NCBI GenBank assembly: GCA_029834535.1 | Contig: JAQMWT010000090.1 | Location: 1 to 35,660, forward strand | Direction of reading: 5' to 3' | Origin: Chrysophaeum taylorii | Lineage: Eukaryota > Sar > Pelagophyceae > Pelagomonadales > Pelagomonadaceae | Length of the DNA: 35,660 nucleotides | Shown: one piece after another, positions 5,435-35,660 of the stretch | How the letters are laid out: every line of letters starts with the position of its first letter | Numbering within the stretch: the first letter of the stretch is position 1 | Notes under the pieces: model-generated | Told to the model about the DNA's origin: nothing | Databases searched by the model: none | The model's input: only the letters and a program-made list of their open reading frames with translations | Program-made: the position numbers and the translations under genes

Positions 5435-5532
5435 TGTTACGAATGGTATGTGAGGCGTTAGACTAGCGATAAGAGAAAGACGTATGGATACTGGATACGT
5501 GGTGCAGGGGTAAGTGTCATAGCTTCCTCACA
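5435..5532 (-). repeat. 3' LTR of the copia element
   Basis: 98 bp, TGTTACGAATGG to CTTCCTCACA on the plus strand. It differs from the other copy mainly by an extra TG after GGTATG. High identity suggests recent insertion or very short, conserved LTRs. Confidence 0.85.
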
Positions 5533-5637
5533 CACGTGCTGGAAAAGAAAGAAAAGGAAAAAGGGGTAAGTGAGGTCCTCACACAGGTGCTGGAAAAAGA
5601 AAGAAAAGGAAAAAGGGGTAAGTGAGACGCTCACAGA
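5525..5637. repeat. Two tandem ~54-bp units next to the 3' LTR
   Basis: Each unit reads CTCACACA(C/G)GTGCTGG, a purine run of about 25 bases, then GGGGTAAGTGAG on the plus strand. The copies overlap the LTR end (CCTCACACA). On the element's coding strand the tract is pyrimidine-rich, so it is not a normal polypurine tract. Confidence 0.75.
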
Positions 5638-5699
5638 GAAGCTTGAAGGAAGACGTCATAGAGGCATTGTGGCAAGAAAGAAAACAACAGAGATCAGGG

Positions 5700-7383
5700 C
5701 GAAGATCACGAAGTGAGGTAAAGAGCACGAAGCCGGAGGAAGGAAGGAGCTTCCGTACTGCGGGTGAAAATTTCGCTAAGATTGTTAAGGCGGGGTATTT
5801 GTTTGAGATCAATGATGTGGTTGCGATGATATTCGGCGGTACTGTAAAAGCGAATGTCAATATGGCGGGTGCGCCGTGTGAGACATTGGAGACGGACTTG
5901 GGTGACGGTGGTGCTATTATCAACATACATTGGGACGGTGTGACGAGGGAGATCAAAGTCATCACAAAAGTTTGAGAAACCAAGAGAGCTCAGCAGTAGC
6001 GGCGTAAAGAGCGAGCAATTCAGCTTCAAAAGAAGAGCGAGCAAGTAAGTACTGCGAGCGGGAGCAGTAGGCGATCATAGAGCCAGCAGAGAAAACAAAG
6101 AAACAGTTGTGGAGTGGCGGTCATCAGGGTCGTCGGCCCAGCTGGAGTCGGAATAACCACAGAGACGAAGGGTAGAATCGCGACCAAGAACAAGGGCAAG
6201 ATCGTGAGAGCCATTGAGATAACGCAGAGTGGGAGATAAAGCGTGCCAAGCGTTCCAGTGGGGTTTACCAGGATTGTGGGAAAAACGCGCACACTGATTG
6301 ACGGACCAAGTGATATCAGGGCGAGTCATGATGGAGATGAAGAGGACACAGCCAACAACACGGCGAAAAGGGATGCGTGCCATGAAAATGTGATCTGGAG
6401 AACCAGGAGTAGGACAGTCAGCCGCAAAAGATGAAGACCTTTGGGAGCGGGAGTGATTTCGGGTTTACTGTTGATGAAGCGATGTTCGGTATGGATTTCA
6501 CGGATAGCATGGGATTGGTCAAGAGTGAGGGTTCTCCGAGGGCGATGACGCGTAATGTGAAGACCAACGTAAGAGGTGAGATCAAGTTCATTGACGTCAG
6601 TGAAAGCGCGGAAACGGAGGAAAAAGGCTTGGTAATGGCCAATGCAATGACGAGGGTGCGCCACAAGAAGATCATCAACGACCAGAACGAGACGTAGAAG
6701 GACGGTAGAATTGAGCACGAGCTTGTAATGGCAAGTGTCACCAGATCCGCGGACGAAGCCACAGTCATTGACGAGAAAGCGTTCCAAATAAAGCCACCAA
6801 TTGCGACAAGCTTGTTTGCAACCATACCAAGAGCGACGGAGCTTGTAAACGATTTTGGAACCATCGGTGGGTTGGCGAGGAGCATAGCCTTCGGGTGGCC
6901 AGACATATAGATGTCTTCGTCAATGGGGGCTTGAATAAAAGCGGAGTTGACATCCAACTTATGCAAATCCCAGTCATGAACAGCAACGCCAGACAGGGGC
7001 TTGTATGAAAGCAGAGATGACATCTACAGGACGGCACGTGTCGTGGTAAGCAATGCCGTGAACCTGCGTGTAACCGCGGACAACGAGGCGAGCCTTGTAC
7101 GATTTGAAGCGGCCAGAGTCATACTTCTTGCGGAGGATCCACTTGAGGGTACAAATGTTGCCAGAAAACGTCGAAGGAAGGCGCATAACATCCCAGCAAC
7201 CAAGCTGACCAAGAGAGCTGTATTCTTTAGCGATGGCTTGCAACCAGCCAGGACGCTCAGGATTGGTCGGAGCTAAAGCTTCACGTAGATGGGTGGAAGT
7301 GATAGTGTATTCGTCAAGGTCGGAATATTGCGACAGTTCTTCGGAAGCAGAGTAATAAACGTGTGCATGAGGATCAACAAGGG
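5700..7383 (-). pseudogene. Copia reverse transcriptase / RNase H, frameshifted
   Basis: Read leftward, fragments in changing frames match the copia RT order. A segment with L-K-W-I-L-R-K-K-Y and K-A-R-L-V-V-R-G-Y-T-Q lies near 7150, K-L-D-V-N-S-A-F-I-Q-A-P-I-D-E-D-I-Y-M near 6940, and the catalytic-type V-V-D-D-L-L-V near 6680. They continue with T-R-P-D-I-T-W-S-V-N near 6330 and G-Y-S-D-S-S-W-A-D-D near 6150, ending in the RNase H region with Y-V-D-N-S and T-R-H-I-D-I-R-F near 5880. Together these are diagnostic for Ty1/copia RT-RNase H. At least four frame changes prevent translation. A 30-bp piece (6927-6956) is partly repeated at 6997-7026. The reverse transcriptase would copy element RNA in capsids; this copy cannot. 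Confidence 0.85.
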
Positions 7384-7470
7384 TGTTAGCTAAACAAGGG
7401 GAAAGGAAGACCTAATGAACTAACAAACGAAAGCTAACAGAAGAGACATACAAAGAGTTACAGGAGGAAA

Positions 7471-7850
7471 CAGAATGGCCCGTATCGACATCAGAATGGT
7501 CCGTATCAACAGCAGAATGGCCCGTATCAACATTGTGACAGGATGAAACAGAATGGCCCGTAAAAAAAAAAAAAGTTTGTTGGTTGTTGTAACGCGCGTT
7601 GGTCGACTTTGCGCGGTCGGCCCCGTTTGGCACGACTTTGTTTTGCACTTTCTGTTGTTTTCTCTCTTTGGTGCTCTTTTGCACTTTCTGTTGTTTTCTC
7701 TCTTTTGCACTTTCTGTTGTTTTCTCTCGAGCTCGTAGAATGGTCGGTTCACGTGATGTTTGTGATCAGTCCCAGTGAAACCGGCGCATTCTCATCAAAC
7801 AAGGGGCAAGGGGGCAACAGCGGGCAAGGGGGCAACAGCAGGAACAGGTG
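7471..7850. repeat. Three short minisatellites inside the copia element
   Basis: CAGAATGG(C/T)CCGTATC recurs at 7471-7560. TTTGCACTTTCTGTTGTTTTCTC occurs three times with overlaps at about 7640-7730. GGGCAAGGGGGCAACAGC recurs at 7803-7845. A run of 13 A lies at 7563. They lie where protease and integrase coding would be expected, so the interior may have been filled by repeat growth after deletion. Confidence 0.7.
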
Positions 7851-8364
7851 ACAATGGGGCAACAATAGACGAGAGCTTGGAAGCGTGATTCGAGAAAGTC
7901 AGAACAACGTTGAAGTTCCTTCGGTGGTTGACATTGCAGGAAATCGGGTAAGTGAAACTGTCAGCAAAATCGAGGTCTGAAGAACAATAGCGACAAAAGT
8001 GCCTGGGATGACGTGCGTTAGACCATTGTTGCCACTGAGGATCGCAGCGGGGCAAAGATAGCGGAAACACAAGCTGGTACATATGATGGCGGTGTACCAG
8101 ACGTCTGATGAGAACATGGCCTTTGGGCAGATAGGCTGCATGGTGCATGGTGACCAGGTTATGACGATGGTCGGAGTCGACAGAAGCAAAAACAGGTGTA
8201 AACAGGGTTGATGCGAACGTGGGTGTTTGGTTGTTGTGGCGCGAGCAAGTTGCCATGGGCACGACCGCGTCCTGTACGCGAAGATGGAAGACTTCGGACG
8301 CGGCAGCGGTGTAAGGAACGAACACAGGTAGACCAGGCTGCTGTATACCAGCCTGCTGTGACAC
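7795..8364 (-). pseudogene. Gag-like frame of the copia element
   Basis: A 189-codon frame begins just inside the primer-binding site and runs leftward. It is rich in P, Q and H and ends in a proline-alanine repeat (A-P-L-P-A-V) made by an 18-bp tandem repeat. There is no convincing CCHC zinc knuckle; the only Cys cluster is C-R-Y-C-S-S. Position directly after LTR and PBS is the reason for calling it gag-derived. It could instead be non-coding leader. Confidence 0.35.
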
Positions 8365-8373
8365 CTGCTACCA
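8356..8373 (-). other. tRNA primer-binding site
   Basis: Minus strand immediately after the 5' LTR reads TGGTAGCAGGTGTCAC. TGGTAGC is complementary to an initiator-tRNA(Met)-type 3' end (GCTACCA), as used by many copia elements. There is no spacer between LTR and PBS. Confidence 0.65.
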
Positions 8374-8469
8374 TGTTACGAATGGTATGAGGCGTTAGAC
8401 TAGCGATAAGAGAAAGACGTATGGATACTGGATACGTGGTGCAGGGGTAAGTGTCATAGCTTCCTCACA
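8374..8469 (-). repeat. 5' LTR of the copia element
   Basis: 96 bp direct repeat of 5435-5532, TG...CA ended. At this length it is unusually short for a copia LTR and leaves little room for U3 promoter elements; no TATA box is evident. Confidence 0.85.
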
Positions 8470-8487
8470 AGTTTGGTCACTTAAGTT

Positions 8488-14449: not shown

Positions 14450-14720
14450 TGCAGGCCAGTAAGTTCACCTACTCCCAATCTCTAACCCCAGTAAGTTCGG
14501 CGTAAACCCACTCGTGCTCACACCCACTCACCCCACTCTCCTTTGAGCTCGTCGCTCTCACCCCCGCCAATCCAAGCTGCTTTGATCCGCACGCGCCGCC
14601 AACCCTTGAGTTTACTCTAAACACCCCAGTAAGTTCACCTGGTCCCAGTTAGTTCACCTGGTCACTCAGCTCACCTAGTCCCAATCTCTAACCCCAGTAA
14701 GTTCACCTGGTCCCAGTAAG
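14450..14720 (-). repeat. Subterminal iterated motif block, copy A
   Basis: CCAGTAAGTTCACCT(G/A) recurs at least six times, in runs at 14451-14500 and 14625-14725. A unique-looking ~120-bp GC-rich stretch separates the runs. It is the inverse of the block at 20580-20923. Confidence 0.8.
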
Positions 14721-15345
14721 TTAACCTATAGTGCGCGTGTAGACGCCGGGAGGGGGCTTATCGGTATTGCGCAGCACGTGTGAGGTAGGGTGGAGTCGTC
14801 GACACAGAAGAGGATATCCTCGGGGTTGCCGATCGACAGAGAGCCACGTAGAGCTGGACGTGACAGAAGACGGGCTTGTGGGCAAGAGGACGCGGACCTC
14901 GCGGGGCGTCTGGCCCTGGCTCTTGTTGATCGTTTGGCGTAGGCGGGCCTTAAGGGATACAGGTTGGAGGAGCCTCGGCGACACGACACGATCAATCATG
15001 TATCTGGTACCGTTGCAGTGGCCGTGCGACGGGTCGAGGTTGCGAAGACCTTAAGCTCGCGATCAAAGTCAGCATGCCGTTGGTTGTCAGGGAGTCGAAA
15101 ACTCGACTGTAAAGAGCGAGGCGTCGTCTTCCGACCTAACCTAGTCGGCCGAAAAGAACTCCGACGCCTCGTCTCCGGAAAAAAGGCCGCGGTCATGCGC
15201 GCGTTGTCAGCATCGACAACATCGTTTCGACGGGGCGTGAGAATGGCGCGCCGAAAGAGCCGCCGCGGGTCGTGGAAATAGTCTGCGAGGTCGCCGTAGA
15301 CGGCTTGGAGGATCACTGTCTGGCTCGCGGGCCAAACTGATCCTT
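14720..15345 (-). pseudogene. RepHel helicase C-terminus (Pif1-like), copy A
   Basis: Leftward reading gives V-Y-G-D-L-A-D-Y-F near 15300, A-I-L-T-P-R-R-N-D-V-V-D near 15240, and, after a shift, I-N-K-S-Q-G-Q-T near 14935 (helicase motif V region). S-I-G-N-P-E-D-I-L-F, the conserved region just after motif VI, follows near 14820. This order is that of the superfamily-1 Pif1-type helicase in Helitron RepHel proteins. Walker A and the Rep domain are absent. A TAG interrupts the S-A-D-x-V region, as in the other two copies. Not functional. Confidence 0.75.
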
Positions 15346-15412
15346 ACCCTAAATCGAGGGACAAACAAACAAACAAACAGACAGACAAACATCTGTCGAT
15401 TAGTAGTTAGGA

Positions 15413-19700: not shown

Positions 19701-19978
19701 CGGGAGATCCTAACTACTAATCGACAGATGTTTGTATGTCTGTTTGTTTGTCTTTAAATGTCGACTGCTAAGAGGGGGGTGTGTGTGGGGAGCATGAAGG
19801 ATGGGGGTGGGTGTGTGGGGTATGAGGGATGTGCCTGGCGGACGGGCGGAGATAAGTACGCGGGACCTAGTCGGGGTCATCGCCGAGGCGTGGGGCAGGC
19901 GAAGAGAGGACGGGCCCCGCCCGTCTGTCTATCCCTCGATTTAGGGTAAGGATCATGTAGGCCCACGAGCCGGCCATT

Positions 19979-20575
19979 GATCCTCGAAGCCGTCTACGGT
20001 GACCTCGCAGACTATTTCCACGACCCGCGGCGGCTCTTTTAGCCAGCGCGCCATTCTCACGCCCCGTTGAAACGATGTTGTCGATGCTGACAACGCGCGC
20101 ATGAATGACCGCGGCCTTTTTTTCCCGGAGACGAGGCGTCGAAGTTCTTTTCGGCCGACTAGGTTGGGTCGGAAGACGACGCCTCGCTCTCAAGAGTCGA
20201 GTTTTGAACTCCCTGACAACCAACGGCATGCTGACTTTGATCGCGAGCTTAAAGTCTTCGCAACCTCGACCCGTCGCACGGCCACTGCAACGGTACCAGA
20301 TACATGATCGATCGTGTCGTTGTCACCGAGGCTCCTCCAACCTGTATCCCTTAAGGCCCGCCGACGCCAAACGATCACCAAGAGCCAGGGCCAGACGCCC
20401 CGCGAGGTCGGCGTCCTCTTGGCGAAGCCCGTCTTCTGCCACGTCCAGCTCGACGTCGCTCTCTGTCGATCGGCAACCCCGAGGATATCCTCTTCTTGGT
20501 CGACGACTCCACCCTACTCCACACGTGCTCCGCAATACCGATAAGCCCCCTCCCGGCGTCTACGCGCGCACTGTA
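19979..20575 (+). pseudogene. RepHel helicase C-terminus, copy B
   Basis: Reads L-E-A-V-Y-G-D-L-A-D-Y-F-H-D-P-R-R-L-F and then an in-frame stop created by a 4-bp longer segment (TAGCCAG) than in copy A. It continues in other frames with L-T-T-N-G-M-L-T-L-I near 20220, S-Q-G-Q-T-P-R-E-V-G-V-L-L near 20390, P-V-F-C-H-V-Q-L-D-V-A-L near 20440 (motif VI, normally H-x-Q-L-Y-V-A-L-S-R) and P-R-I-S-S-S-W near 20480. Diagnostic for the Helitron helicase C-terminus. Disabled by several shifts and stops. Confidence 0.8.
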
Positions 20576-20579
20576 GGTG

Positions 20580-20923
20580 GACTTGCTGGGACCAGGTGAA
20601 CTTACTGGGGTTTGAGATTGGGACTCGGCGAATATAGTGACCAGGTGAACTCACTGGGACCAGGTGAACTTACTGGGGTTTTTAGAGTTAACTCTAAGGT
20701 TAGCGGCGTGTGCGGATCAAAGCGGCTTAGATTGGCGGAGGCGAGAGCGACGAGGTCGGAGGAGTGGTGTGACTCACTGTGAGCACGAGTGGGTTTACGC
20801 CGAACTTACTGGGGTTAGAGATTTGGACTAGGTGAACTTACTGACCAGGTGAACTTACTGGGACCAGGTGAACTTACTGGGGTTAGAGATTGGGACTAGG
20901 TGAACTTACTGGCCTGCACTTGT
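20580..20923 (+). repeat. Subterminal iterated motif block, copy B
   Basis: ACCAGGTGAACTTACTGGG and close variants occur at least eight times in two clusters (20585-20675 and 20805-20915). Between them lies a GC-rich ~130-bp stretch that includes CGAGTGGGTTTACGCCGAAC. The word contains a short self-complementary part (CCAG...CTGG), so each unit could form a small hairpin. Confidence 0.85.
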
Positions 20924-22266: not shown

Positions 22267-22937
22267 TTACTTGATCACGAATCCTGCGAGGGAATGCACG
22301 ACCGCCAAGGTCTCTGGTTTAAAGACACAACATTTGTCGAGAGCTGAATGGACTCCTCCTATCATCGCTCTTAGTGATGCGCGAGTCAGACGACGACTTT
22401 CTCCAAGGACAAGCCCGTGGTCTGCGACCCCAAGATCAATCAAGCGCACCGCTGCTTGCGCCCTCAAGGCTCGGACCGCTTTTCGCCGGGTCTGCGCGAC
22501 CACCATCCGACGCCGTCTGACGATGATTGAGCCCGGCCTCGAGGAGTAGCAACGAGTGCTCCCATGCGCGACGACGATCTCTGTCCTTGCCCCCACTTGT
22601 GCCGCCACTGCGAAGCCCGAACTCTCCGCTTATAAGATCAGCGCCGAAATGCTCTTGTCGGAAGGACGACATAAGAAAGGACAATCAGACGAGCCACAAA
22701 GATCATGTTCGCCGGAATTCTGTCGCGCAACGGTAGCTTGGCTAAGCCTCCTGCTGTCATTGCTCGAAGATCCTCTGACCTGCACCTCGGTCCGCGAGTG
22801 GGACGGGCATGTGGCGTAAGGAGAATTTTAGGGGCTACCTGGCGTGCCTTCGAATCCTGGCTCGCCGCTCGCGTCCGTGCCCTTGGTGGAGTCACTGGAC
22901 GAGGATAGCCGTTCTCCCGCCACACAACCACAAACAA
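22267..22937 (-). CDS. Hypothetical protein, frameshifted
   Basis: Three minus-strand frames follow each other with little overlap: 22937-22638, 22684-22436 (S-F-R-Q-E-H-F-G-A-D-L-I-S-G-E-F-G) and 22608-22267 (A-A-V-R-L-I-D-L-G-V-A-D-H-G-L-V-L-G-E-S, ending L-A-G-F-V-I-K). They may be one protein with two single-base shifts. No domain is recognised. It lies between the gypsy 3' end and the next hypothetical gene. Confidence 0.3.
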
Positions 22938-23039
22938 CTTCCGTGTCTCGTCCTCACAACTTGAGGATCGGCTGTTGCTTTATGATCAAGATATTATCGA
23001 AACACAGAAATCATGGTGACACATGTCTCGGAAAAGAAA

Positions 23040-23069
23040 GATGATGTCATAAAGAAAACTGACATCATC
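23040..23069. other. Perfect 10-bp inverted repeat near the gypsy 3' end
   Basis: GATGATGTCA and TGACATCATC flank a 10-nt A-rich loop. It lies about 120 bp beyond the polyprotein stop, where a 3' LTR would be. TGACATCA also resembles a bZIP-type binding half-site. Function is inferred only. Confidence 0.7.
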
Positions 23070-23187
23070 ACGACGGAGTAGGGTGCCCCTGATAAGGGGG
23101 GGCTCTAGAAGAGGGGTAAGCCTTAGGAGGCGGGAGTTGCCGCCGCTGGACTCCCCTGGTAAGAATTCGAGCTGCCCCAGCGAGGTG

Positions 23188-24287
23188 CTAGCGCGAGGAG
23201 CGCGGCTTCGCCTTACGAGCATCTCGTGAACGAATCTTCTGGTAAACGCGGGTGATGACCGGTTCAGGAACTCGGCCACTGCGTAAAGTAAACTTGGGAA
23301 TCAACACATCAATCTCGTGCGGAGCGAAATCCGTGACACAAGGAGTTGTGTTGGAAGAAACTCTGGACTTGTCGGTGAAACTTCGACCTTCAACGTCCTT
23401 GAACTCGGGCTTGAGCTTGCGGTGCGAAAGGTGAGAGGTCGGCTTGAAACAAGAGACATCATCGTTCGGACCCAAATCGGAATAGAAATGTAGAGCAACA
23501 CGATCATTTTGGTAATCGTAAGGCTCATAAACTTCAGCAACATAAATCTTCTTGCGCCAATCAGAGCACCTCCGGGCAGGAATCCGGAAAACAACAAACT
23601 TACCGTGCTGATAATCATCACGGAAGGTTTCTTCGGGTTTGCGGATGGCTTGATCAACGATCGCAGGTACCATCACAGGCGTGATCTGACTTACATGAGC
23701 ACGTCGTTCTTCGGGCGGAGAGTCGAGAGACTCAATCCTATAGGTGACCGGGGAAAGGCGTTCCTTGATAATAAACGGCCCTCGCCATTCCGGTCGAAGT
23801 TTGTTCTGAAGGAAAGGGATGTAGAGCAAAACGTGCGATCCTTCCTTGTATTCAACATCAACATGATCAGCATTGTAAGCCAATCGCTGTTTCTTCAAAG
23901 CTTTATCACGAGCCTCGCGGACGAGCTTTGTATAATATTTCAATCGTTCGCGAGTCACGGCGACTGCATCAGAGCGAGTCTTCGGCAATAATCGTGTATC
24001 AAAATCCATGAGCGTGTAGTCAGTCGGTAGCATCGGCTGACGGTTCAGGCGTAGCATAAAGGGAGAAATCTGCGTGCCTGGAATAAACTTGCGGTTGTAG
24101 CAAAACGCAATATAATGAGCAAAGTCAGGACAATCCGTGATGTTCCGGCCCTGCAAGCACGGATGAAGGCCTTGATAAATCGGTTTACACGCTCAGCCGG
24201 GTTCGACTGGGCATGATAAGGAATCGTAGTTTGGTATCGTGTGTTAAAGAGATGGCAAAACTCGCGCATCAACTTGTTCACGAACTC
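23188..24287 (-). pseudogene. Gypsy integrase C-terminal half plus extra module
   Basis: After the nonsense codon at 24290-24288 the integrase core continues (E-F-V-N-K-L-M-R-E-F-C, then P-Y-H-A-Q-S-N-P-A-E-R-V-N, which contains the third catalytic acid). A 1-bp shift near 24156 leads to a 322-codon frame. That frame carries the GPY/F-type C-terminal domain (W-R-G-P-F-I-I at residues 124-130). It then adds about 150 further residues, with a module at residues 182-255 (G-K-F-V-V-F-R-I-P, K-I-Y-V-A-E-V-Y-E-P-Y-D, V-A-L-H-F-Y). That module is barrel-like and in the place where other gypsy elements carry chromodomains. It is not a canonical chromodomain; a BAH or SH3-like reader is a guess. Confidence 0.75.
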
Positions 24288-25485
24288 TTAACCGTTGTCG
24301 GTACGAATCATCTGGGGCAAGTAGCCCTTGAGTAGGATGTTGATGACAAAAGACTCGAGGACAGACTCAGCAGTCTTATCGTTCAAAACACCCAGAATCA
24401 AGAAATGCGAGAACGGATCAAAAAATACTAGAAGATACGTCTCGGGACCAGCGCTAGGCAAGGGCCCAAATAAACCCATGCAAAGAACAGCACCATCACC
24501 ATCGTAGACTGGCTGCTGCAAGAGTCCAGCTCGTTTCGGCTCAGGCGTACGAGCTTTCTGGCAAACTAAACATTCAGCAATGAAGATTCCAACTTCGTTC
24601 GACATGTGAGGCCACCAAAATCGTTCTTGGATAGCCTGGACGGTACTGTGACGTCCCATATGACCACCGTTAACCGGAGTGTCATGGTAGAGTCGAATAA
24701 TGCGCTTGCGCAACGTAGCAGGTGCAACAATCATCGGGTGCGAATCAGCAGAAATGCGATAAAGAACATCTTTAACGACTTCGAATCGTTCGTTCGCTCG
24801 GGAACGTCGCGGCGTCTGACCTTGGGCCATTCGGTAGCGAATATCCTCGCAAGCAGCATCAGATTCTTGCTCACGTGCGATCTCAGCGAGCGTTATATTA
24901 TCGGGTATCTTATCGATATAATCTTTGTAAGCGGCTGCGTCCTTGAAGATCTGTGGCTCATCGCGCGCACGGTTCTTCCGACGTTGTCTCGTAGCGTGAG
25001 ACGTAGCCAATTTCTTCGGATCTTTTTCAGGATCTTCTTCCTCGTCTTCCGGCAGTTCGGTCGTAATAAACGACATTATGAAGTGGCAGCCGGAGGCGGG
25101 AATTCCTCGGTCATCAACAGGTCGGGGAAGCTCTTGGAACACCAAATAAGCGTGGTTCAAAGGATCTCCAAACTCGTCAGTCTCGATGACGTGATCTATC
25201 GGATTGCGGGAGAGACAGTCAGGGATACTCATTCCTGGTGACTTTCCCGGCTTGTAACCAAGTTCAGGGTCAAAATTGGCGAGGCGCATCGCCCAACGAG
25301 CAAGCTGCCCAGACGAGTGCATCGCCTTACGTAAAAACGTCAAATTTCGGTGATCGGTCTCCAAAACAGTCCGGTTCCCTTCGATGTAGGCTCGAAAGTG
25401 CTCTAGAGAAAGTATAACTGCCAGCAGCTCTAGCCGACGGGGCTCGTAATTGCGCATCTCCTTCGGCACAGCTCGGCTCCAATAT
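24288..25485 (-). pseudogene. Gypsy RNase H end, integrase zinc finger and core
   Basis: A 393-codon frame. It begins in RNase H (R-R-L-E-L-L-A-V, T-D-H-R-N-L-T-F-L), then a linker with acidic and K/R-rich stretches. The integrase HHCC finger follows (Y-H-D-T-P ... G-G-H-M-G ... C-L-V-C-Q-K) and then the core. Where gypsy cores normally have M-D-L-F-G-P-L-P this copy has M-G-L-F-G-P-L-P, so the first catalytic aspartate is glycine. The second, in R-T-D-N-G, is present and is followed at once by TAA. Joined upstream to the RNase H start by a 1-bp shift near 25490. Confidence 0.8.
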
Positions 25486-25878
25486 TCAACACACTCGTTC
25501 TTCTCGAGTCACTCTTCCGGCATCGTCCTTGATTTCGACAATCTGGAAGAGATATGCTCCAAGTCCATCCTTGGAAGCATCGGATCGGATCTGAAAAGGC
25601 GGATCATAATCGGGGTGGTAGACTCCACGGGAATCAAACAGAGCTTCAATAATCGCATCCCAAGCTTTCTGACACTCGGGCGTCCACTCGAACTTTACAC
25701 CTTCGAGGCATAATCGTCTCAATGGTTCCACGATCTTCGAGTAGCCCTTCACATATCGCCGGCAGTAATTACTCATGCCGATGAAAGAGCGTATCTGGGT
25801 CTTCGGGGAAGTATTCGGTATAGTACCTGGAATCGGCATCTTCGGCAGTGCTTCCAGCGTCTTCGGATTCGGCTTCAA
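25486..25878 (-). pseudogene. Gypsy RT thumb and RNase H start
   Basis: 130-codon frame with R-S-F-I-G-M-S-N-Y-C-R-R-Y-V (gypsy RT connection), F-E-W-T-P-E-C-Q-K-A-W, and the first RNase H acid in R-S-D-A-S-K-D-G-L-G-A-Y-L. It continues the RT frame after a 1-bp deletion at about 25879 and precedes the rest of RNase H after another shift near 25490. RNase H would remove the RNA template strand during cDNA synthesis. Confidence 0.8.
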
Positions 25879-26831
25879 GCTTCTGGGGTCGAGATGTGTC
25901 CCAGAAATTCTATATCATCCTTGAGAAGGTGGAACTTCGCGGTTCGACCGCTGTACCCTCTCTGTGCCAAATGACACATCACTTCGATCAAAACTTGTAA
26001 ATGTCGATGAAGATCGTCGGATCCCATCATAATATCGTCAACAAACGCAACCAAGTCTTGATACATCCATTTCGAAAGGTCGCTCGCCATTTGCTTGCGG
26101 AAAAGAGCTCCGGCCGTCTTCACACCTAGAGGTAATCGCAAGAAACTATGAGCGCCAAGTGGGCTAACCATCGTGACAGCGTCTTGCGCTGCCGGATCCA
26201 GACGAAGGTTGTGGTATCCCCATCTAATATCAATGCATGTCCGCCATCGTCTCATAGCGAGAAAAGCTAAAGCATCATCTTGTCGAATGTTCGGCCAACT
26301 GTCATTGACCAATTGATCGTTGAGTTGACGTAAGTCAACTGCAGCACGGAACGCGTTTGACGTTCCAATCTCAGCTCCTTTCTTCGGAAGCATCAACACA
26401 GGAAAGCCCCAAGGTGAGTTGGCCGGACGAATGACACCATCCCGGCACCACTCGCTGATCTGCTTGCGGAGACAATCGAGCTTCGCAGGCGTCAATCGGT
26501 AGGGCGTCATCTTAATCGGTCGCGGATTCGCGTCTTTGAATCGTAGAGACACAGGAGGTGAGTCCACAGGTCTCATAATCGGGTCGAAAAAGGCCCAAGA
26601 ATATTGCACACAGTGACGGAGCATCAGTTTCGCCTCGTCATCTAAGTGCGGATTGTCAGGAATTCCCAGCTCCTGAACAACCTTGTCAACTTCTTCCTTC
26701 GTAGGAACTTGAACTTTCATAGCTTCATTATCCTTGACATGCTCGGGAGTTTGCGGCAGCGGTGCACCCTCAGCATCGCGCGGCGCATCTTTCCATGGCA
26801 CATCGAACTTCTTCTCATATTTTAGTCTCAC
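25875..26831 (-). CDS. Gypsy reverse transcriptase domain
   Basis: A 318-codon uninterrupted frame. Motifs in order: N-S-P-W-G-F-P-V-L-M-L-P-K-K (residues ~140-155), A-A-V-D-L-R-Q-L-N near 175, C-I-D-I-R-W-G-Y-H near 205, L-P-L-G-V-K-T-A-G-A-L-F near 240, and F-V-D-D-I-M-M, the catalytic Y/F-x-D-D box, near 265. It ends F-L-G-H-I-S-T-P-E, where a 1-bp deletion breaks the frame. All RT catalytic acids visible are intact. N-terminal ~90 residues are the usual linker before RT, directly following the methyltransferase module. Confidence 0.9.
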   Translation of the reverse strand: MRLKYEKKFDVPWKDAPRDAEGAPLPQTPEHVKDNEAMKVQVPTKEEVDKVVQELGIPDNPHLDDEAKLMLRHCVQYSWAFFDPIMRPVDSPPVSLRFKDANPRPIKMTPYRLTPAKLDCLRKQISEWCRDGVIRPANSPWGFPVLMLPKKGAEIGTSNAFRAAVDLRQLNDQLVNDSWPNIRQDDALAFLAMRRWRTCIDIRWGYHNLRLDPAAQDAVTMVSPLGAHSFLRLPLGVKTAGALFRKQMASDLSKWMYQDLVAFVDDIMMGSDDLHRHLQVLIEVMCHLAQRGYSGRTAKFHLLKDDIEFLGHISTPEA

Positions 26832-26909
26832 TTCCGGGTGGCTTTGTTGATCCTCTCGCCTTTGACACGAACACTCGGCTCGCTCTTAATCTTCGGTTCC
26901 CGATCTCGC

Positions 26910-28622
26910 TCAGGATCTGGCAGAACGTCCAAATTTGGTTGTCGGGGGGGGGGCAGCAGAAGAAGCATGAGACGTCCCCGGCTCATCTGTTGCGGGCGGA
27001 ATCAACGGTACCTCTGGAGGTTTCCATTTGGTGCGATCTTGGAGATCATCAGTCGACACCCATCTTACGACACGTGTGCGCGTGTTTAACAGCGGAACTT
27101 GTACGTGACGAAGGGTGGTTTCATCAATTTGTAAATAATAATCAAACGGTCGGTCTGCAGGACTCAACGCTGACGGCAAAGCTTCGCCGCTCAGGTGAAA
27201 ATTCTTGGTCACAGAGTTGTGCAGATCGAGCACTAATAAGGCCATCGTGTCAGGTGGCACGACGGACGCCAAGTGTTTCAACGAGGTCGTCCTGGAGAAG
27301 CCGGCCCAATCAAAATCAAGGGGCATCGTCAGCAACTCTGAAGTCATTTTCAGATTCAGAGATCTGTAATCGGAACGGTTCTGTCCTACGTGAAGCGGGA
27401 CACGCGCAACCGTATAAGCTGCGTCTGTCGCGGCTCGTGATGATCCTAGATTGTTCATCTGAAGTAAATGTCGTTCGTCGGCGTAGCCAAGTGCTGCGGC
27501 GAACTGTTGCTGCATATTCTTGCAAGTCTTCGGAACTGCGCGCAAATGGAGCGGATGGCTGGAAACCAACAATCGCACGCGACAGCTCATCAAACTGGGC
27601 GTTATGTCGTAAAAATTGACTACGTACACGTAAGGGTGCAAACGCGCAACGTAAGAAATAATCGAGGCCTCCTGCTCTATCAACCGCATGAAGAAACCAG
27701 CCATCTTGCATAATTTCATCGTCCAGTGGGTAGCGGTGACTCCCTTGCCAACATCTCTGGAAGTCAAGTTGCGCAGAGCGGAGTGTACGCAGGGTGCCGA
27801 CGCGATACACATCGACGACGACCATTCCGCGTAGGGCAAATAAGATTCGATCAACCGTAAGGTTGTAACATAGCGACCACACAGTGTGTGCCGCACCACA
27901 GGAATATTCGGAAAGTTCTTGTGGTGGATCTGGTTGGCGGTGTCCGAAGCATCGAGTGCTAGCACGACTCGAAACGACGTCCCACACGTTTCGTTGGCTC
28001 GTTGGAGACCTAAAGTACTGCCTCCGGCTCCACTGAACAGCATCACCACCTTGCGATAAGTGATTGGAAGCCATTGAACCTTTTCGTATCGGCGGCGGAT
28101 CTCCGCTTCGGTGATCTCGCGGCATTTCTTTTCATCTTCTTCCGACCTTCGAGCGAAATCGTCGCTGCCTTCAGGTCGTTTGAGGGTGGACTTGTCCGCC
28201 ATAGCGGTCTTAGCGTCCTTCTGCGCCGTGCTCAGCAACATCGGCGGGGGAGACGCGTCGCAATGCGTCAAATGACTCGCGACAGAAACGGTGAAAGAAA
28301 GGTTCCCCTTGTCGTATCCTTCTTCACATTCTTTCGTAAGTTCGTTGATCGTAGAGACGTTCAACTCATCTTCGTACCTAACGATACCGCCAATCGCAAG
28401 GACTTCGCCTTGAGTGACGACCGTCGGCACTTCTTCCGCGGCAGTAACCGCAATCCGAGCAGCGGACCGGTCGTGCTCTTCGCAAGAAGAACACATTCCT
28501 TCGACAACTCCCAACTGCTCGTTCTCAGCAAACGTAGCGACAAAACCTGTCCCATTTCCATAGGTTTCGACAAAATAACCGGTAGATTGTAAGTTCGACC
28601 GGGCTCGATGTGAAGCGTGCAC
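26910..28622 (-). CDS. C5-cytosine DNA methyltransferase module inside the gypsy polyprotein
   Basis: One uninterrupted 570-codon frame, the longest in the element. Residues 1-100 finish the protease-RT linker. Residues 190-466 match a C5-cytosine methyltransferase. Motif I is V-M-L-F-S-G-A-G-G-S-T-L-G-L (193-206), motif II A-L-D-A-S-D (222-227), and motif IV A-S-A-P-C-V-H with the catalytic P-C at 277-278. Motif VIII-like C-R-V-R-L-L-V-S-S is at 347-355, and the motif IX-X region runs from A-Y-T-V-A-R-V-P-L (402) to S-V-V-P-P-D-T-M-A-L-L-V (453-464). The usual P-P-C-Q is A-P-C-V and motif VI (E-N-V) is not clear, so activity is uncertain. The target-recognition region is short (~50 residues). 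It would transfer methyl groups from S-adenosylmethionine to cytosine in DNA. Residues 467-570 lead into the RT linker through an acidic/proline region broken by a G-run frameshift near 26945. Confidence 0.85.
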   Translation of the reverse strand: MHASHRARSNLQSTGYFVETYGNGTGFVATFAENEQLGVVEGMCSSCEEHDRSAARIAVTAAEEVPTVVTQGEVLAIGGIVRYEDELNVSTINELTKECEEGYDKGNLSFTVSVASHLTHCDASPPPMLLSTAQKDAKTAMADKSTLKRPEGSDDFARRSEEDEKKCREITEAEIRRRYEKVQWLPITYRKVVMLFSGAGGSTLGLQRANETCGTSFRVVLALDASDTANQIHHKNFPNIPVVRHTLCGRYVTTLRLIESYLPYAEWSSSMCIASAPCVHSALRNLTSRDVGKGVTATHWTMKLCKMAGFFMRLIEQEASIISYVARLHPYVYVVNFYDITPSLMSCRVRLLVSSHPLHLRAVPKTCKNMQQQFAAALGYADERHLLQMNNLGSSRAATDAAYTVARVPLHVGQNRSDYRSLNLKMTSELLTMPLDFDWAGFSRTTSLKHLASVVPPDTMALLVLDLHNSVTKNFHLSGEALPSALSPADRPFDYYLQIDETTLRHVQVPLLNTRTRVVRWVSTDDLQDRTKWKPPEVPLIPPATDEPGTSHASSAAPPPTTKFGRSARS

Positions 28623-28930
28623 GCAGCGTAAGCAACTACTTTCCGCGCGGCTTCTCCCGGAGCTGGGGAGAATTTGGTCGTAGCATGTCCTCGCGTAGCC
28701 AAGGCTACCGTACGTTCCGGCGGCGGGGTTCGGAGATCTTTAATCGTGCTCAAACGAGCGTAAACTCGAGTCTTGACCAGGTCGAGACTCTTCCGAAAGA
28801 CATCGTGTTGATGATTGTAGATCGGCACGGTTATCGGATCTCGATCGTAAATAGATCGAAAGGTCACGATGGGTGCATCGATTCGTTCATCCTTGAACTT
28901 AATCTTCTTGCGCCCGTAGACGACTTGGGT
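28361..28930 (-). pseudogene. Gypsy protease-to-RT linker
   Basis: A frame from about 28930 to 28575 reads I-Y-D-R-D-P-I-T-V-P-I-Y-N-H-Q and E-A-A-R-K-V-V-A-Y-A-A-C-T-L-H-I-E-P-G. It then reads Y-N-L-P-V-I-L-S-K-P and, after a 1-bp deletion in a G run, the frame of the methyltransferase protein. This beta-rich spacer between protease and RT is usual in gypsy elements. The upstream junction lies at an A8 run near 28940. Confidence 0.65.
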
Positions 28931-29725
28931 TCGAAAAAAAACAGATCTGATCGTGGGGGTAGTCCACGACGGCTCCTAAAACTCGTATATCGCGCCCTCC
29001 CAACAGGAACAGATAGTTCGTATCGGCCACAATAGCGACAATGGGGGCAGCGATGTTGTCGGCGAGGGCGACCCGAATCGCGATCCAACGAAAGATCGTC
29101 GTCGTATTCAATCCTGATCCGTACAGCTTGCGCTTAATCGGAAGTTCGCCTTCATCGAAAATCAACTGATCTTGGCCAACCTTCTGACCATTTCTCGGCA
29201 AATATAAGAAACATCTGCCATTCCATCGACACCGATGGTCGTCGAGAATTTCGGTCCGTCACGATTCCTGTAGATGTGACAGGCTATAAACGTAAGAGTA
29301 CCCGTATCTAAACAACTGAGGGTAACCAAATCATCTTCGATCGTCTTGCCGTCTCGCGGCGTCAACGAAGTGTGAGCACATCGGGCTCTGACTCGCTCAT
29401 CTCCGGGGTTGGGCATCGATACCGCGGCTTGAGCTTTCGTATCATCTGTTGTTGGCGTCATCGACGTAACGCTCGCGGCAGCCTCTTTGTCTGGCGGCTT
29501 CCGCTCTTCCTCCAAGACAATCTCAGTGCTGGTAGGGGATCCTGGTCTTCGTAATCCTTGGAAGCAAACCACCCCTCTCCATAAGTCATTCATTTCGTCT
29601 TTCCAGAATGCATCTGTAAATTCATTCGTCATCGGTTGATCATCACCCTCATCGGCGATCGGTTCCGTGTCGGATGCAGCTTCGAGTCCGTAGCTGAGCG
29701 GTTGTTCTGGTGGCTTCTTTAGCAA
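28899..29725 (-). pseudogene. Gypsy aspartic protease region
   Basis: The frame 29725-29162 ends in a retropepsin-like start (T-T-I-G-V-D-G-M-A-D-V-S-Y-I-C-R-E-M-V-R-R-L). It continues after a 1-bp shift near 29175 into the frame 29201-28899, which has the flap-distal part L-L-G-G-R-D-I-R-V-L-G-A-V-V-D-Y-P-H-D. Retropepsins normally show D-S-G or D-T-G at the active site; here the aligned residues are D-G-M, which would disable the enzyme. The preceding ~180 residues are acidic and Pro/Thr-rich, probably the C-terminal part of gag. No zinc knuckle is evident. Confidence 0.65.
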
Positions 29726-29729
29726 GAAG

Positions 29730-31252
29730 TTCTGAGTTCTCGTGCACCAATCCTGCAGGTTCCACGTCGGCTCGTCTTCGTCCCACTCGAGAACGCTGCT
29801 ACTCTCTCTTCTTAAATCTATCCTTTTCTTCCGGCGGCGTATCGGTGGCTCGATCCGTCGTACCCGAAACCGTTTCGGGGGGGTCCGCAGGAAAAGATGG
29901 CGTCGTCCCCGACGTCAACTCTATCGTAAGATCGCCATCTGCATCACTCGCGGTGGTCATCGTCTCTCGTCAGTCGAATGAGCGCGCAAGCTATCACTGC
30001 AGAAATCCATGTCTGGCTCACAGCCAGTTCGGTCGCCAGAGGTCGTCCCTGGAGGGTCCAAAGATAAGCCGATGGCATCGAGGGCTTCCTCGTCAAAAAT
30101 AAACGGCGGGTCGTCCGTGGACGACTCGTCAAATAACGTTATCGCGGACACTGGTTCACAAGGTGCAGCTTCTTCATCTTCCGAATCTGAATTGTCTTCC
30201 CAGTACCGTGGAGCTTCTTCGAGTTCATCGCTCGAATCTTCGAGTTCATCGCTCGACATCTGCTCATAAATCTGTGCCAAAGACCGACGATTGGTCAGCA
30301 CGTCGTTGGGTGGCTCGTCCATCGGCGGGCGAGCAAGATCGTCGAATGCGGCAAGGGCGTCGGCTGCGTCGTCGGTGCGGGTGTCCGCGTTCGGGTACAC
30401 CGTCACTCTTAATGGTAACTGTTGACCGCAAGGGGTCGTAAACGCGAGCGTTGCGCTCAAAAAACCCAAATTATATTGGTGTCGGCCTCCGTCGTATTCG
30501 TCGTCGCGCGATCGGCGTCGTCTGTGCCGGTGCGAACTTCGACTGGGGCTCTTGTTATCTTTGTCTCTCTCTGGCGTCAGTTCGGCAGGTCCTAGTACCT
30601 CTGAATCGTCCCTGTAGGCGACTGGTGCTCCCAAGCCGATCCGAACTGTCTCAATCGTCTCGTCTATCGAAACATCGACACATGCATCGTCTTCTTGCCA
30701 AAACTCCGACCAAACGTAAATTAAATCTCCGTTGGCGAATAAATCCGTGCCTCGGGGTCGGAATTGCACTTCTTTCCGCTCTGGCGGTTTCTTCCTTAGG
30801 AAACAGTGAGCTCGTATCCATATCGTCGGTACGCTCATCTTCTTCTTATCCATGCTGATCGTCCCATCCAAATTCGATTCCGGGCGGCAGCTATACTCAT
30901 CCCTCATAGTATGTTCGGGATCTTTCTTTATCACGTAGCCATCATCATATGCAGGCTGAAAATCATTGAACTCTTCGTTCGTGAGTAATACGCCAGGGCT
31001 TTCACAGAGCTCCAAAGGCAGTTCATGCGTTATAAGATTCTTCACCTCTTCCGCTTTCGTATTCATTTTCTCGGCCGTTTCGCTCGGCCTATCATCCACT
31101 CCATCGCTTAGAATATCGGCAATCGCCTCGTCACTAAAAATGTCGGCACACGAAATGTCTGCCATCGTCAAAGGGAACAAAACATCTGCAAAGACGTCTG
31201 CAATCGGTTCGTCGGGGGGCCCTGTGGGACGGGAATCCCCAACATGTCTTCA
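29730..31252 (-). CDS. Gag-like acidic protein of the gypsy element
   Basis: A 407-codon frame (31180-29957, open upstream to 31252) and a short following frame to about 29730. It opens with a repeat-like acidic segment (I-A-D-V-F-A-D-V-L and C-A-D-I-F-S-D-E-A-I-A-D-I-L-S-D). A folded-looking region follows (V-P-T-I-W-I-R-A-H-C-F-L, N-G-D-L-I-Y-V-W-S-E-F-W, T-V-R-I-G-L-G-A-P). Then come an R/S/D-rich stretch (S-S-H-R-H-R-R-R-R-S-R-D-D) and a long acidic tail. Position before protease makes it gag by context; no capsid or CCHC motif can be pointed to. The first ATG in frame is M-A-D-I-S-C at about 31165. Confidence 0.5.
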
Positions 31253-31389: not shown

Positions 31390-34330
31390 ATGGTCGACCC
31401 GTGGCGCAGCGATGATGGCCGTCCTCGACGGGGAGGGGACGCGCGACCCCCGGACCTTTCCAAAAAGCGACGCGTCGACGAGCGCTACCAAACAAGGCCA
31501 AGGCCGTCGTCGTCGTGGCTTCACGAAGCGAGTGATCGAGGGCAAGGCGGCCGGCGGCGCGATCCAAATCGAGACCACTCGCCGATGCGACGACGACGAC
31601 GACGAATCCCCGACCGCGCAGCAGACAACCCGTGCAGCTGCCGCCGCGACGGTCGAGACTTGCCGCACCGTTCTCGATCGCCAGGGCGAAGACGACGACT
31701 TGGTGCGCACGACCACTGGCGGCGCGACGGTGGTCAGAGAGACTGGCGCCGTTCTCAGTCGCCGGCGCGACAACAAGTGGGTGAGACGCGGCGCACCCGG
31801 CATGGCCCCGAAGGTCGCGCTGCTCCCTCGAGCCCCGCGCTAGCCAGCCGTTCCGAGGCACCGCGATGGCAACAAATTGAATGGGGGAAGCAGATGACGG
31901 ACCGCGGTGCGACTCCCGAGACGACACTTTCTCTCTTCGCGGCTCAAGGTGAAAAATTTAGCGCTCGGAACTTGTCGACTGCCGCGCACCGCGTTGCCAA
32001 GTTTGGAGGCCGCCGAAACCGCGACGTGCAGCGCGATCGCCGTGTGATGGCCCTCGCGAACGCTTGTCGGCGCCGTGTTAACGATTTTAATCCGCAGGAG
32101 ATCGCCAACACGGCGTGGGCCTTCGCGACGGCGCGCATGGAGGCACCCGAGCTCTTCGCGGCGATCGCCAGGGCGGCTTCATCGCGGCTGGGCGAGTTCA
32201 ATCCGCAGGATCTCGCCAACACCGCGTGGGCCTTCGCGAGGGCGGGCATCGATGCACCCGAGCTCTTCGCGGCGATCGCCGACGCGGCTCCTTCGCGGCT
32301 AAGCGAGTTCAATCCGCAGCAGATCGCCAACACCGCGTGGGCCTTCGCGACGGCGCGCATCCAGGCACCTGACCTCTTTGCGGCGATCGCCGGCGCTGCA
32401 CCCTCGCGGCTTGCCAAGTTCAATCCGCAGAACCTCAGTAACACGGCGTGGGCCTTTGCGACGGCGGGCATAGAGCCGCCCGAGCTCTTCGCGGCGATCG
32501 CCGGCGCGGCTTCATCTCGGCTTGCCGAGTTCAATCCGCAGGACCTCGCCAACACGGCGTGGGCCTTCGCGACGGCGCGCGTCGAGGCGCCCGAGCTCTT
32601 CGCGGCGATCGCCGGCGCGGCTTCATCTCGGCTTGCCGAGTTCAATCCGCAGGACCTCGCCAACACGGCGTGGGCCTTCGCGACGGCGCGCGTCGAGGCG
32701 CCCGAGCTCTTCGCGGCGATCGCCGGCGCGGCTTCATCTCGGCTGCCGCGTTCAATCCGCAGGACCTCGCCAGCACGGCGTGGGCCTTCGCGACGGCGCG
32801 CGTCGAGGCGCCCGAGCTCTTCGCGGCGATCGCCGGCGCGGCTTCATCTCGGCTTGCCGAGTTCAATCCGCAGGACCTCGCCAACATGGCGTGGACCTTC
32901 GCGACGGCGCGCGTCGAGGCGCCCGAGCTCTTCGCGGCGATCGCCGGCACGGCTTCTTCGCGGCTCGGCGAGTTCAATCCGCAGGAGATCGCCAACACCG
33001 CGTGGGCCTTTGCGACGGCGCACATCGAGGCACCTGAGCTCTTCGCGGCGATCGCCGGGGCGGCTTCATCGCGGCTGGGCGAGTTCAATCCGCAGGAGAT
33101 CGCCAACACGGCATGGGCCTTCGCGACAGCGCGCGTCGAGACACCCGAGCTCTTCGCGGCGATCGCTGGCGCGGCTTCATCTCGGCTTGGCGAGTTCAAT
33201 CCGCAGAACCTCGCCAACACGGCGTGGCCTTTGCGACGGCGCGCATCGAGGCGCCTAAGCTCTTCGCGGCGATCGCCGGTGCGGCTTCATCGCAGCTTGC
33301 CAACTTCAATCCGCAGGAGCTCGGCAACACGGCGTGGGCCTTCGCGACGGCGCGCGTCGAGGCGGCCGAGCTCTTCGCGGCGATCGCCGGTGCGGCTTCA
33401 TCGCAGCTTGCCAACTTCAATCCGCAGGAGCTCGCCAACACGGCGTGGGCCTTCGCTACGGCGCACATCGAGGCACCTGAGCTCTTCGAGGCGATCGTCC
33501 GCGCGGCTTCATCGCAGCTTGGCGAGTTCAATCCGCAGAACCTCGCCAACACCGCGTGGGCCTTCGCGACTGCGCGCATTCAGGCACCTGAGCTCTTCGC
33601 GGCGATCGCCGGCGCGGCTTCATCGCGGCTTGTCGAGTTCAATCCGCAGAACCTCGCCAACACCGCGTGGGCCTTCGCGACGGCAGGCATCGAGGCACCC
33701 GAGCTCTTCGACAGGATCGCTGGCGCGGCTTCAACGCGGTTGGGCGAGTTCAATCCGCAGGAGCTCGCCAACACGGCGTGGGCATTTGCCTGCGTCGACT
33801 GGAAAAATAACCCTGGGATTTTCACGGAGCTCGCCTACATCGTTGTCACAGATCTCGATGCTCTCGATGATCGCGAACTGTCGCAGCTCCACCTTGCTTC
33901 GCTGCACTTTCACCTCGAGTGGCCCGACCTCCACCGGAACTTTCGGCTGTCAAAACACCAGCAGATGCTTCAGGAAGCGTATCAACGTCAGGACCCATCA
34001 CCATCCCAACTCCAGCGCGACGTTGCGACCGCGCTCGACGAATTGGCTGGACGCACGTCTTCGAGCACGTGACCGAAGAGGGATTGTCGCTCGACATGGC
34101 TCAACCCGACACGAAGCGCGCGGTCGAAGTCGACGGGCCATACCACTACCTGAAGAGAACGAGGGTTGAGAACGGCGCTACGCGCTTCAAGTCCCGTTGC
34201 TACGGCGGCTTGGCTGGGACGTTGCTCACGTCCCGTTCTTTGAGTGCAGGCCCTCGACGGCGAGCGAGAACAAGACTCTTACCTCCGGGCAAGGCTGCAA
34301 ATAATGCTTGCAGCATCGCGCAATATGTAA
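31390..34330 (+). CDS. Octotricopeptide-like repeat protein with RAP domain
   Basis: From ATG 31390 a ~230-residue Arg/Asp/Ser-rich leader (for example S-P-M-R-R-R-R-R-R-I) precedes 15 full and one partial 37-residue repeats of the form F-N-P-Q-x-L-A-N-T-A-W-A-F-A-T-A. A helical region follows (D-L-D-A-L-D-D-R-E-L-S-Q-L-H-L), then a RAP domain (W-T-H-V-F-E-H-V, A-V-E-V-D-G-P-Y-H-Y, L-G-W-D-V-A-H-V-P-F-F-E) and a natural TAA at 34328-34330. Such proteins bind organellar RNA, controlling chloroplast or mitochondrial transcript stability, splicing or translation; RAP is a restriction-nuclease-like fold. Five single-base deletions (about 32745, 33227, 34045, 34203, 34243) interrupt the frame; three are in short G runs. 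The rest is intact, so sequencing error is as likely as recent decay. No clear transit peptide is seen. Confidence 0.85.
32086..33800 (+). repeat. 111-bp tandem array (OPR-like repeats)
   Basis: TTCAATCCGCAG recurs every 111 bp, 16 times. Units 5-7 are almost identical at the DNA level, pointing to recent duplication or gene conversion. Protein variation is concentrated at two sites per unit: the pair after F-N-P-Q (E-I, D-L, Q-I, N-L, E-L) and the triplet before A-P-E-L-F (R-V-E, G-I-E, H-I-E, R-I-Q). Confidence 0.95.
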
Positions 34331-35051: not shown

Positions 35052-35660
35052 TCCTTACTACTACTAATTAGCAGATGTCTGTCTGTCTGTCTTTAAATGT
35101 CGACTGCTGAGAGGGGTGTGTGCATGAAGGATGTGGGTGGTTTTGTGGAGTAGGTCGACTCTCCCCAAATCAGGGTAAGGCTCAGGTAGGCGCGCGACCC
35201 AAACATTGATCCTCCAAGCCGTCTATGGCGACCTCGCGGACTATTTCCACGACCCGCGGCGGCTCTTTTAGCCAGCGCGCCATTCTCACGCCCCGTCGAA
35301 ACGATGCTGTCGATGCTGACGACGCGCGCATGACGGCGGCCTTTTTTCCCCGGAGACGAGGCGTCGGAGTTCTTTTCGGCCGCCTAGGTTGGGTCGGAAG
35401 ACGACGCCTCGCTCTCAAGAGTTTTTTTTCATCTCCCTGACCACCAACAGCATGCTGGCTTTGATATCGAGCTTAAAGTCTTCGCAACCTCGACCCGTCT
35501 CGCACGGCCACTGCAACGGTACCAGATACGTGATAGATCGTGTCGCGTGTCGCCGAGGCTCCTCAACCAGTATCCCTCAAGCCCCACCGACGCCAAACGA
35601 TCAACAAGAGCCAGGGCCAGACGCCCCGCGAGTCCGCGTCCTCTTGCCCACAAGCCCGTC
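35052..35660 (+). mobile_element. Helitron-like element, copy C, runs off the right edge
   Basis: Begins TCCTTACTACTACTAATTAGCAGATG, a variant of the 5' end of copies A and B. It is followed by (GTCT)n, TTTAAATGTCGACTGCTGAGAGG and a shortened G-rich module, then the helicase remnant from 35205. It shares with copy B the 4-bp longer TAGCCAG segment that puts a stop after R-R-L-F. The 3' end is outside the window. Confidence 0.75.
35205..35660 (+). pseudogene. RepHel helicase C-terminus, copy C (partial)
   Basis: Contains the V-Y-G-D-L-A-D-Y-F-H-D-P-R-R-L-F segment, the shared stop, A-I-L-T-P-R-R-N-D-A-V-D in the following frame and, near 35600, the start of the N-K-S-Q-G-Q-T region (CAACAAGAGCCAGGGCCAGAC). 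Broken by the same kinds of shifts as copies A and B and truncated by the window edge. Confidence 0.75.

Follow-up and report, generated by a model that had tools for sequence, protein, structure and literature searches.

The window analysed here, the whole of Chrysophaeum taylorii contig JAQMWT010000090.1 (contig C90; 35,660 nucleotides), contains on its minus strand a decayed member of an abundant Ty3/gypsy retrotransposon family. This family encodes a C5-cytosine methyltransferase domain in its Gag-Pol polyprotein, between a protease-like region and the reverse transcriptase (RT), an arrangement common to its closest gypsy relatives. The sequence-only reading had proposed such an enzyme within a gypsy polyprotein, from an open frame with FSGAGG, ASAPC, CRVR and SVVPPDTMALLV flanked by protease and RT frames of the same strand. 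The open frame and all four motifs were recovered, on the minus strand, as was the RT frame; the protease has no Pfam match and was assigned from its position and pattern. The element has the following features, in which LTR stands for long terminal repeat, ORF for open reading frame, aa for amino acids and AdoMet for S-adenosylmethionine.

22810..31224, minus strand: Ty3/gypsy element copy without its 5' part and 5' LTR (94-95% DNA identity to two copies on contig C5)
22810..23144, minus strand: 3' LTR of about 335 bp, one end altered (91% to an LTR of the intact C5 element)
23188..24192, minus strand: integrase C-terminal frame (PF22938, 1.7e-5, 25.3 bits, cut-off of 27 not reached)
24288..25914, minus strand: broken RNase H and integrase (H2C2, rve) frames (PF17919, PF17917 and PF17921 above cut-off, PF00665 below)
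25875..26885, minus strand: RT frame (PF00078, 3.1e-13)
26910..28739, minus strand: 609-aa open frame holding the methyltransferase (ORF translation; alignment to the intact copy)
27141..28094, minus strand: C5-cytosine methyltransferase domain, 318 aa (PF00145 borderline in the frame and found in four related domains; model and fold match)
27249..27269, minus strand: motif X, ASVVPPD (copy alignments)
27573..27581, minus strand: motif VIII Arg-x-Arg, RVR (copy alignments)
27669..27677, minus strand: motif VI, EQE replacing ENV with the Glu retained (copy alignments)
27789..27803, minus strand: motif IV with the catalytic Cys, ASAPC (ASPPC in 20 other copies examined)
28020..28037, minus strand: motif I, FSGAGG, AdoMet binding (unchanged in 16 of 18 copies of family A)
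28361..28975, minus strand: protease-side linker frame upstream of the methyltransferase (no Pfam match; by eye similar to about residues 1150-1277 of the intact ORF; DNA alignment)
29162..31249, minus strand: gag-like and protease N-terminal frames of 250 and 430 aa (no Pfam match; by eye similar to about residues 388-1069 of the intact ORF; DNA alignment to 31224)

The methyltransferase frame runs without a stop from 28739 to 26910 and is the longest open frame of the element, the others having 430, 406, 336 and 334 aa; the plus strand across 26910-28622 is closed by stops. Residues 63-597 align to the intact C5 copy at 94%. Residues 1-62 have no match there and are out of register, so the domain's own frame starts near 28553 and the coding frame shifts upstream of it. 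CRVR is found at 27573-27584 and SVVPPDTMALLV from 27266. The SAPC form of motif IV is unique to the window copy among 21 copies, of which 20 have ASPPC and all have Pro-Cys.

The genome (697 contigs, 70.8 Mb) was searched with this frame, and at least 78 matched places, the window's own counted, were found at E 0.001 or better (72 of the 1339 candidates were scored, which makes this a lower bound; a few copies are counted as two pieces). Many copies are around 94% identical to the window frame, several lie within open frames of 1,500-3,067 aa, and the arrangement recurs on many contigs. The intact copy on contig C5 (L023:484-9672, minus strand) is a single frame of 3063 aa, with LTRs of about 341 bp that are direct repeats, 98.2% alike and ending in TGTGGC...GCCACA; inspection by eye revealed no target-site duplication there. 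Its polyprotein consists of gag-like and protease-like regions, the methyltransferase from about residue 1443, RT (1997-2161), RNase H (2231-2368) and integrase (2552-2897), an order that together with the direct LTRs identifies a Ty3/gypsy element. The protease-like stretch VDGMADVSYI...LLGGRDI is at the expected place, with no Pfam protease match in the C5 or window frames. RT copies gave at least 150 matches that are 90-100% identical, many of them 98-100% (150 of 1013 candidates scored). Such close similarity points to a family that was active recently, although the window copy is broken.

Identity as a C5-cytosine methyltransferase is supported by PF00145 matches, by the fold and by invariant residues. 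In the window frame PF00145 is borderline, matching the motif I region only and narrowly missing the cut-off of 22 bits (1.5e-4, 21.8 bits), but the isolated domains of the four related loci L023, L029, L030 and L032 match it significantly, at 1e-5 to 2.7e-10, above the curated cut-off. The predicted fold appears to agree, with an AdoMet-binding Rossmann domain, a target-recognition region and a C-terminal motif X helix, and the first Foldseek row for the domain model is human DNMT2; a single-sequence structure model of the domain (predicted local distance difference test score, 35) was not usable. Among family-A copies the catalytic Cys is kept in 18 of 18, the motif VI Glu in 17 of 18 and Arg-x-Arg in 18 of 18, and a longer motif I string, FSGAGGSTLG, is unchanged in 14 of 18. 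The Cys, Glu and Arg-x-Arg are also invariant in a five-sequence alignment of the domain, as is the motif X Pro. That the domain derives from a methyltransferase and belongs to the element is close to certain. A conserved gypsy domain of another kind was considered and dismissed on the fold and the invariant residues: the interval itself is the methyltransferase.

The ratio of nonsynonymous to synonymous polymorphism (pN/pS), pooled over family A, is 0.23 for the methyltransferase (18 copies), compared with 0.13 for RT (16), 0.11 for integrase (9), 0.26 for the protease region (15), 0.44 for the linker (13) and 0.75 for mid-gag (4). Between families A and B, the methyltransferase domain has a nonsynonymous divergence (dN) of 0.119 and a synonymous divergence (dS) of 1.94, the latter near saturation, for a ratio of 0.061; the corresponding ratio for RT is 0.026. 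By these measures the domain is under purifying selection, both within family A and between the two subfamilies.

Relatives outside the genome were sought with the RT-to-integrase frame of another copy, which found 148 proteins, the best 120 of which were examined. The domain profile detects the methyltransferase in 5 of these 120: P0003, P0004, P0011, P0009 (1.4e-42) and P0002 (3.8e-27), the last labelled Chrysocystis, a pelagophyte, and carrying only the later part of the domain. The first three had served to build the profile, so that P0009 and P0002 are the independent matches. Nine proteins have an RT at least 38% identical over at least 150 columns; all five that extend at least 250 aa upstream carry the domain, and the other four end too early upstream of RT to show it. 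Among the 119 relatives with an RT match, 39 have at least 300 aa upstream, and the domain is present in 4 of these and lacking in 35 more distant ones. Thus, the domain marks one gypsy clade, and would have been acquired before the closest gypsy relatives parted. Two 7-row trees, one built from the domain and one from RT, both join P0003 with P0004 and A with B; they disagree on P0009, which has a long branch in the domain tree. Between methyltransferase and RT there are about 440 residues in P0003 and 400 in P0004, compared with about 105 in L023. Protein searches with the methyltransferase region itself gave no match at E 0.001, in a procedure whose candidate stage requires shared 5-letter words, and the relatives come from the RT-side search only; scans of viral contigs found no relative.

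The C. taylorii genome also contains other methyltransferase-bearing retrotransposons. A divergent gypsy family (L030 on C344, L032 on C260) has the same domain upstream of RT, 37-38% identical to that of the window, at no fewer than 134 matched places (124 of 896 candidates scored). A Ty1/copia family (L031 and L033-L036, with L033 at C96:59500-68500) likewise carries a C5-methyltransferase domain, in the order protease-like motif (by eye), methyltransferase, integrase stretch (rve 0.0055, below cut-off) and RVT_2 (1.3e-17). Its PF00145 match (9.8e-8, 32.2 bits) is above cut-off and covers profile positions 39-159 only, corresponding to motifs II to VI. This copia family has at least 129 matched places (121 of 652 candidates scored) and a pN/pS of 0.23 over five copies. 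Protease active-site patterns are unusual in both methyltransferase-bearing families, DGMA in gypsy (region of L023 residue 1050) and DGGA in copia (L033), compared with D-[ST]-G-A. The gypsy and copia methyltransferase domains have no detectable profile similarity to each other, which fits separate captures without proving them.

Two free host genes with PF00145 were identified, one Dnmt2-like (C634) and one Dnmt5-like with SNF2 (C621), drawn from ten places among 124 PF00145 matches, so that intron-split or other enzymes could escape. All of these share PF00145 with the retrotransposon domains, but the host enzymes are free genes and the similarity is weak: the gypsy profile aligns to the Dnmt2-like enzyme with an hhalign E of 3.8e-4 (probability 36%) and to the Dnmt5-like enzyme with an E of 0.26. 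A frame in the host-gene neighbourhood resembles, by eye, a light-harvesting protein; with the Dnmt5-like gene and the Chrysocystis relative, it hints weakly that the host is a stramenopile alga.

Retrotransposons with cytosine methyltransferases have been described by de Mendoza et al. 2018 as SymbioLINE, SymbioDIRS-Dnmt3 and KnitGypsy-Dnmt3 (PMC5890265), a paper that cites Iyer et al. 2011 among reports of RT-linked methyltransferases. KnitGypsy-Dnmt3 of Klebsormidium nitens resembles the present element in belonging to the Gypsy superfamily, in carrying a cytosine methyltransferase within Pol and in being under purifying selection, but it has a DIRS-like repeat arrangement and a Dnmt3-class domain, whereas the C5 copy has ordinary direct LTRs and an EQ-type motif VI (PMC5890265). 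The Symbiodinium elements are also retrotransposons with C5-methyltransferases, high copy number and purifying selection, and two SymbioDIRS domains methylated CG in yeast; they are, however, of DIRS and LINE classes in a dinoflagellate, and SymbioLINE is CpG-depleted, whereas the elements described here are LTR gypsy and copia and family A is not depleted (PMC5890265). DIRS elements with Dam-like methyltransferases likewise combine retrotransposon and DNA methyltransferase, but the enzyme is a structurally unrelated adenine methyltransferase and a tyrosine recombinase replaces integrase (PMC5890265, PMC6338049). Retrotransposons with adenine or cytosine methylases occur in stramenopiles among others (PMC6338049). 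Sola1 of Ectocarpus (ParB and a DNA methyltransferase domain) is a stramenopile transposon too, but a DNA transposon, with an enzyme predicted to make N4-methylcytosine or N6-methyladenine (PMC12477816). For copia, PMC12344493 refers to the 2018 paper for DNMT3 in LTR Copia and DIRS elements; in the sections drawn on here the cited paper reports gypsy, DIRS and LINE elements and Symbiodinium copia elements without a methyltransferase domain (PMC5890265), and a precedent for copia may or may not exist. The sections of PMC9998398 and PMC3145265 covered do not mention methyltransferase-bearing stramenopile retrotransposons, and the covered parts of the open-licence literature yielded neither a description of this gypsy clade nor an example from a pelagophyte.

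Of the two options in the sequence-only reading, a further lineage of such elements or a capture made independently, the tests favour a lineage separate from the known methyltransferase-bearing elements, because the LTRs are ordinary, the relatives are pelagophyte and other, and Dnmt3 membership of the domain is not demonstrable (profile matches to the two host enzymes are weak); independence of the capture is not proven.

From the general biology of LTR elements, the methyltransferase would be packaged in the particle with RT and integrase and would meet the complementary DNA (cDNA) there. There it may methylate cytosines in the double-stranded cDNA of its own element, before integration or during it. 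A new copy would then already bear the mark of self or quiet DNA on arrival, or be protected against host enzymes that act on DNA lacking modification. Such cDNA methylation is the predicted role of the domain, with about even chances of being correct. The domain together with this proposed role is the best overall explanation and a reasonably probable one.

Several observations weigh against this explanation. PF00145 falls below cut-off in the whole L023 frame (18.4 bits) and in P0003 and P0004 (13 bits), and the Pfam scan did not report it in P0011 and P0009; the NCBIfam dcm model gives 18-22 bits against a cut-off of 100, sequence searches of PDB gave best E values of 0.19 and 0.015, and the fold assignment depends on a modest structure model. 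Motif VI is EQE, not ENV, with variants EQE, EEE, EQI and EQS and, in 1 of 21 copies, DQE. P0009 has TPDC as motif IV and retains a single motif I glycine out of three, and P0003 and P0004 have SPSC, with Ser before the retained catalytic Cys; parts of the catalytic loop thus appear free to vary in some lineages. Furthermore, CpG is not depleted in family-A elements (observed/expected 1.28-1.33, against 1.10-1.43 in non-element stretches), and therefore no footprint of methylated-CpG decay is present there. The corresponding values are 1.21 for family B, 1.02 for family C (one locus) and 1.01-1.05 for the copia family (three loci); in the latter two, CpG is below most other stretches and TpG/CpA is raised to 1.13-1.21, in a small sample with no statistical test, and a copia fragment of the window in which no methyltransferase was seen is equally low (0.99). 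The motif changes and the undepleted CpG would suit a pseudo-enzyme, a catalytically inert part of Pol whose methyltransferase fold is kept for binding nucleic acid or for scaffolding, but the retention of the catalytic Cys, Glu and Arg-x-Arg and the purifying selection on the domain argue otherwise, and this explanation is considered unlikely.

Methylation of RNA in the manner of Dnmt2 (of element RNA or of a tRNA, for example the primer), rather than of DNA, would accord with the closer profile match to the Dnmt2-like than to the Dnmt5-like host enzyme and with the human DNMT2 at the head of the Foldseek rows, yet is rated improbable. Equally improbable is self-methylation whose purpose is not to evade defence but to keep the element silent and spare the host, a possibility that PMC5890265 raises for the known cases; the near-identical RT copies and the 98.2% LTR similarity in one copy suggest recent activity instead. 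An assembly join, or a single chance insertion in one copy, might be imagined from the window copy alone, with its broken frames and the frame change just upstream of the domain, but is refuted and of negligible probability: numerous contigs share the arrangement, with unbroken frames as long as 3067 aa, and proteins of other origin have it too. The three objections foreseen by the sequence-only reading, namely lack of a significant PF00145 match, a conserved gypsy domain of another kind and a false join, have thus each been answered.

Elements bearing the type of enzyme with which hosts normally silence them had been known in dinoflagellates and in a single charophyte. With another gypsy clade, and a copia family in the same genome, LTR elements would be seen to have acquired cytosine methyltransferases repeatedly and in a repeatable position. 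More tentatively, and with somewhat less than even chances, the EQ-type enzyme of an old gypsy clade of several protists and that of the Ty1/copia family would represent at least two captures, both directly after the protease region, with cDNA methylation in the particle as a general strategy. If so, a host in which only Dnmt5-like and Dnmt2-like genes were otherwise identified would hold roughly 300 retrotransposon enzyme copies (341 matched places, some copies being counted in pieces). The intact, decayed and motif-changed copies are an abundant natural set for probing the purpose of the enzyme.

Other repeats are present in the window. The copia-like fragment (RVT_2) at 5435-8470 is short, has near-identical ends of 98 bp and is not closely similar to the methyltransferase-bearing copia family. 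Fifteen repeat copies spaced at 110-111 bp occupy 32007-33858; their long open frames code for NPQ..ANTAWAFATA-type units, each about 37 aa long. A second tandem array, at 47-750, repeats about every 80 bp and encodes ankyrin-like units (WARENGCPWD) on the minus strand. A dispersed repeat of about 0.9 kb is found at 14454-15370, 19923-20846 and 35172-35660 (the third cut by the window end), 89-91% alike, with the first copy in the opposite orientation to the others; it is present on contig C5 also.
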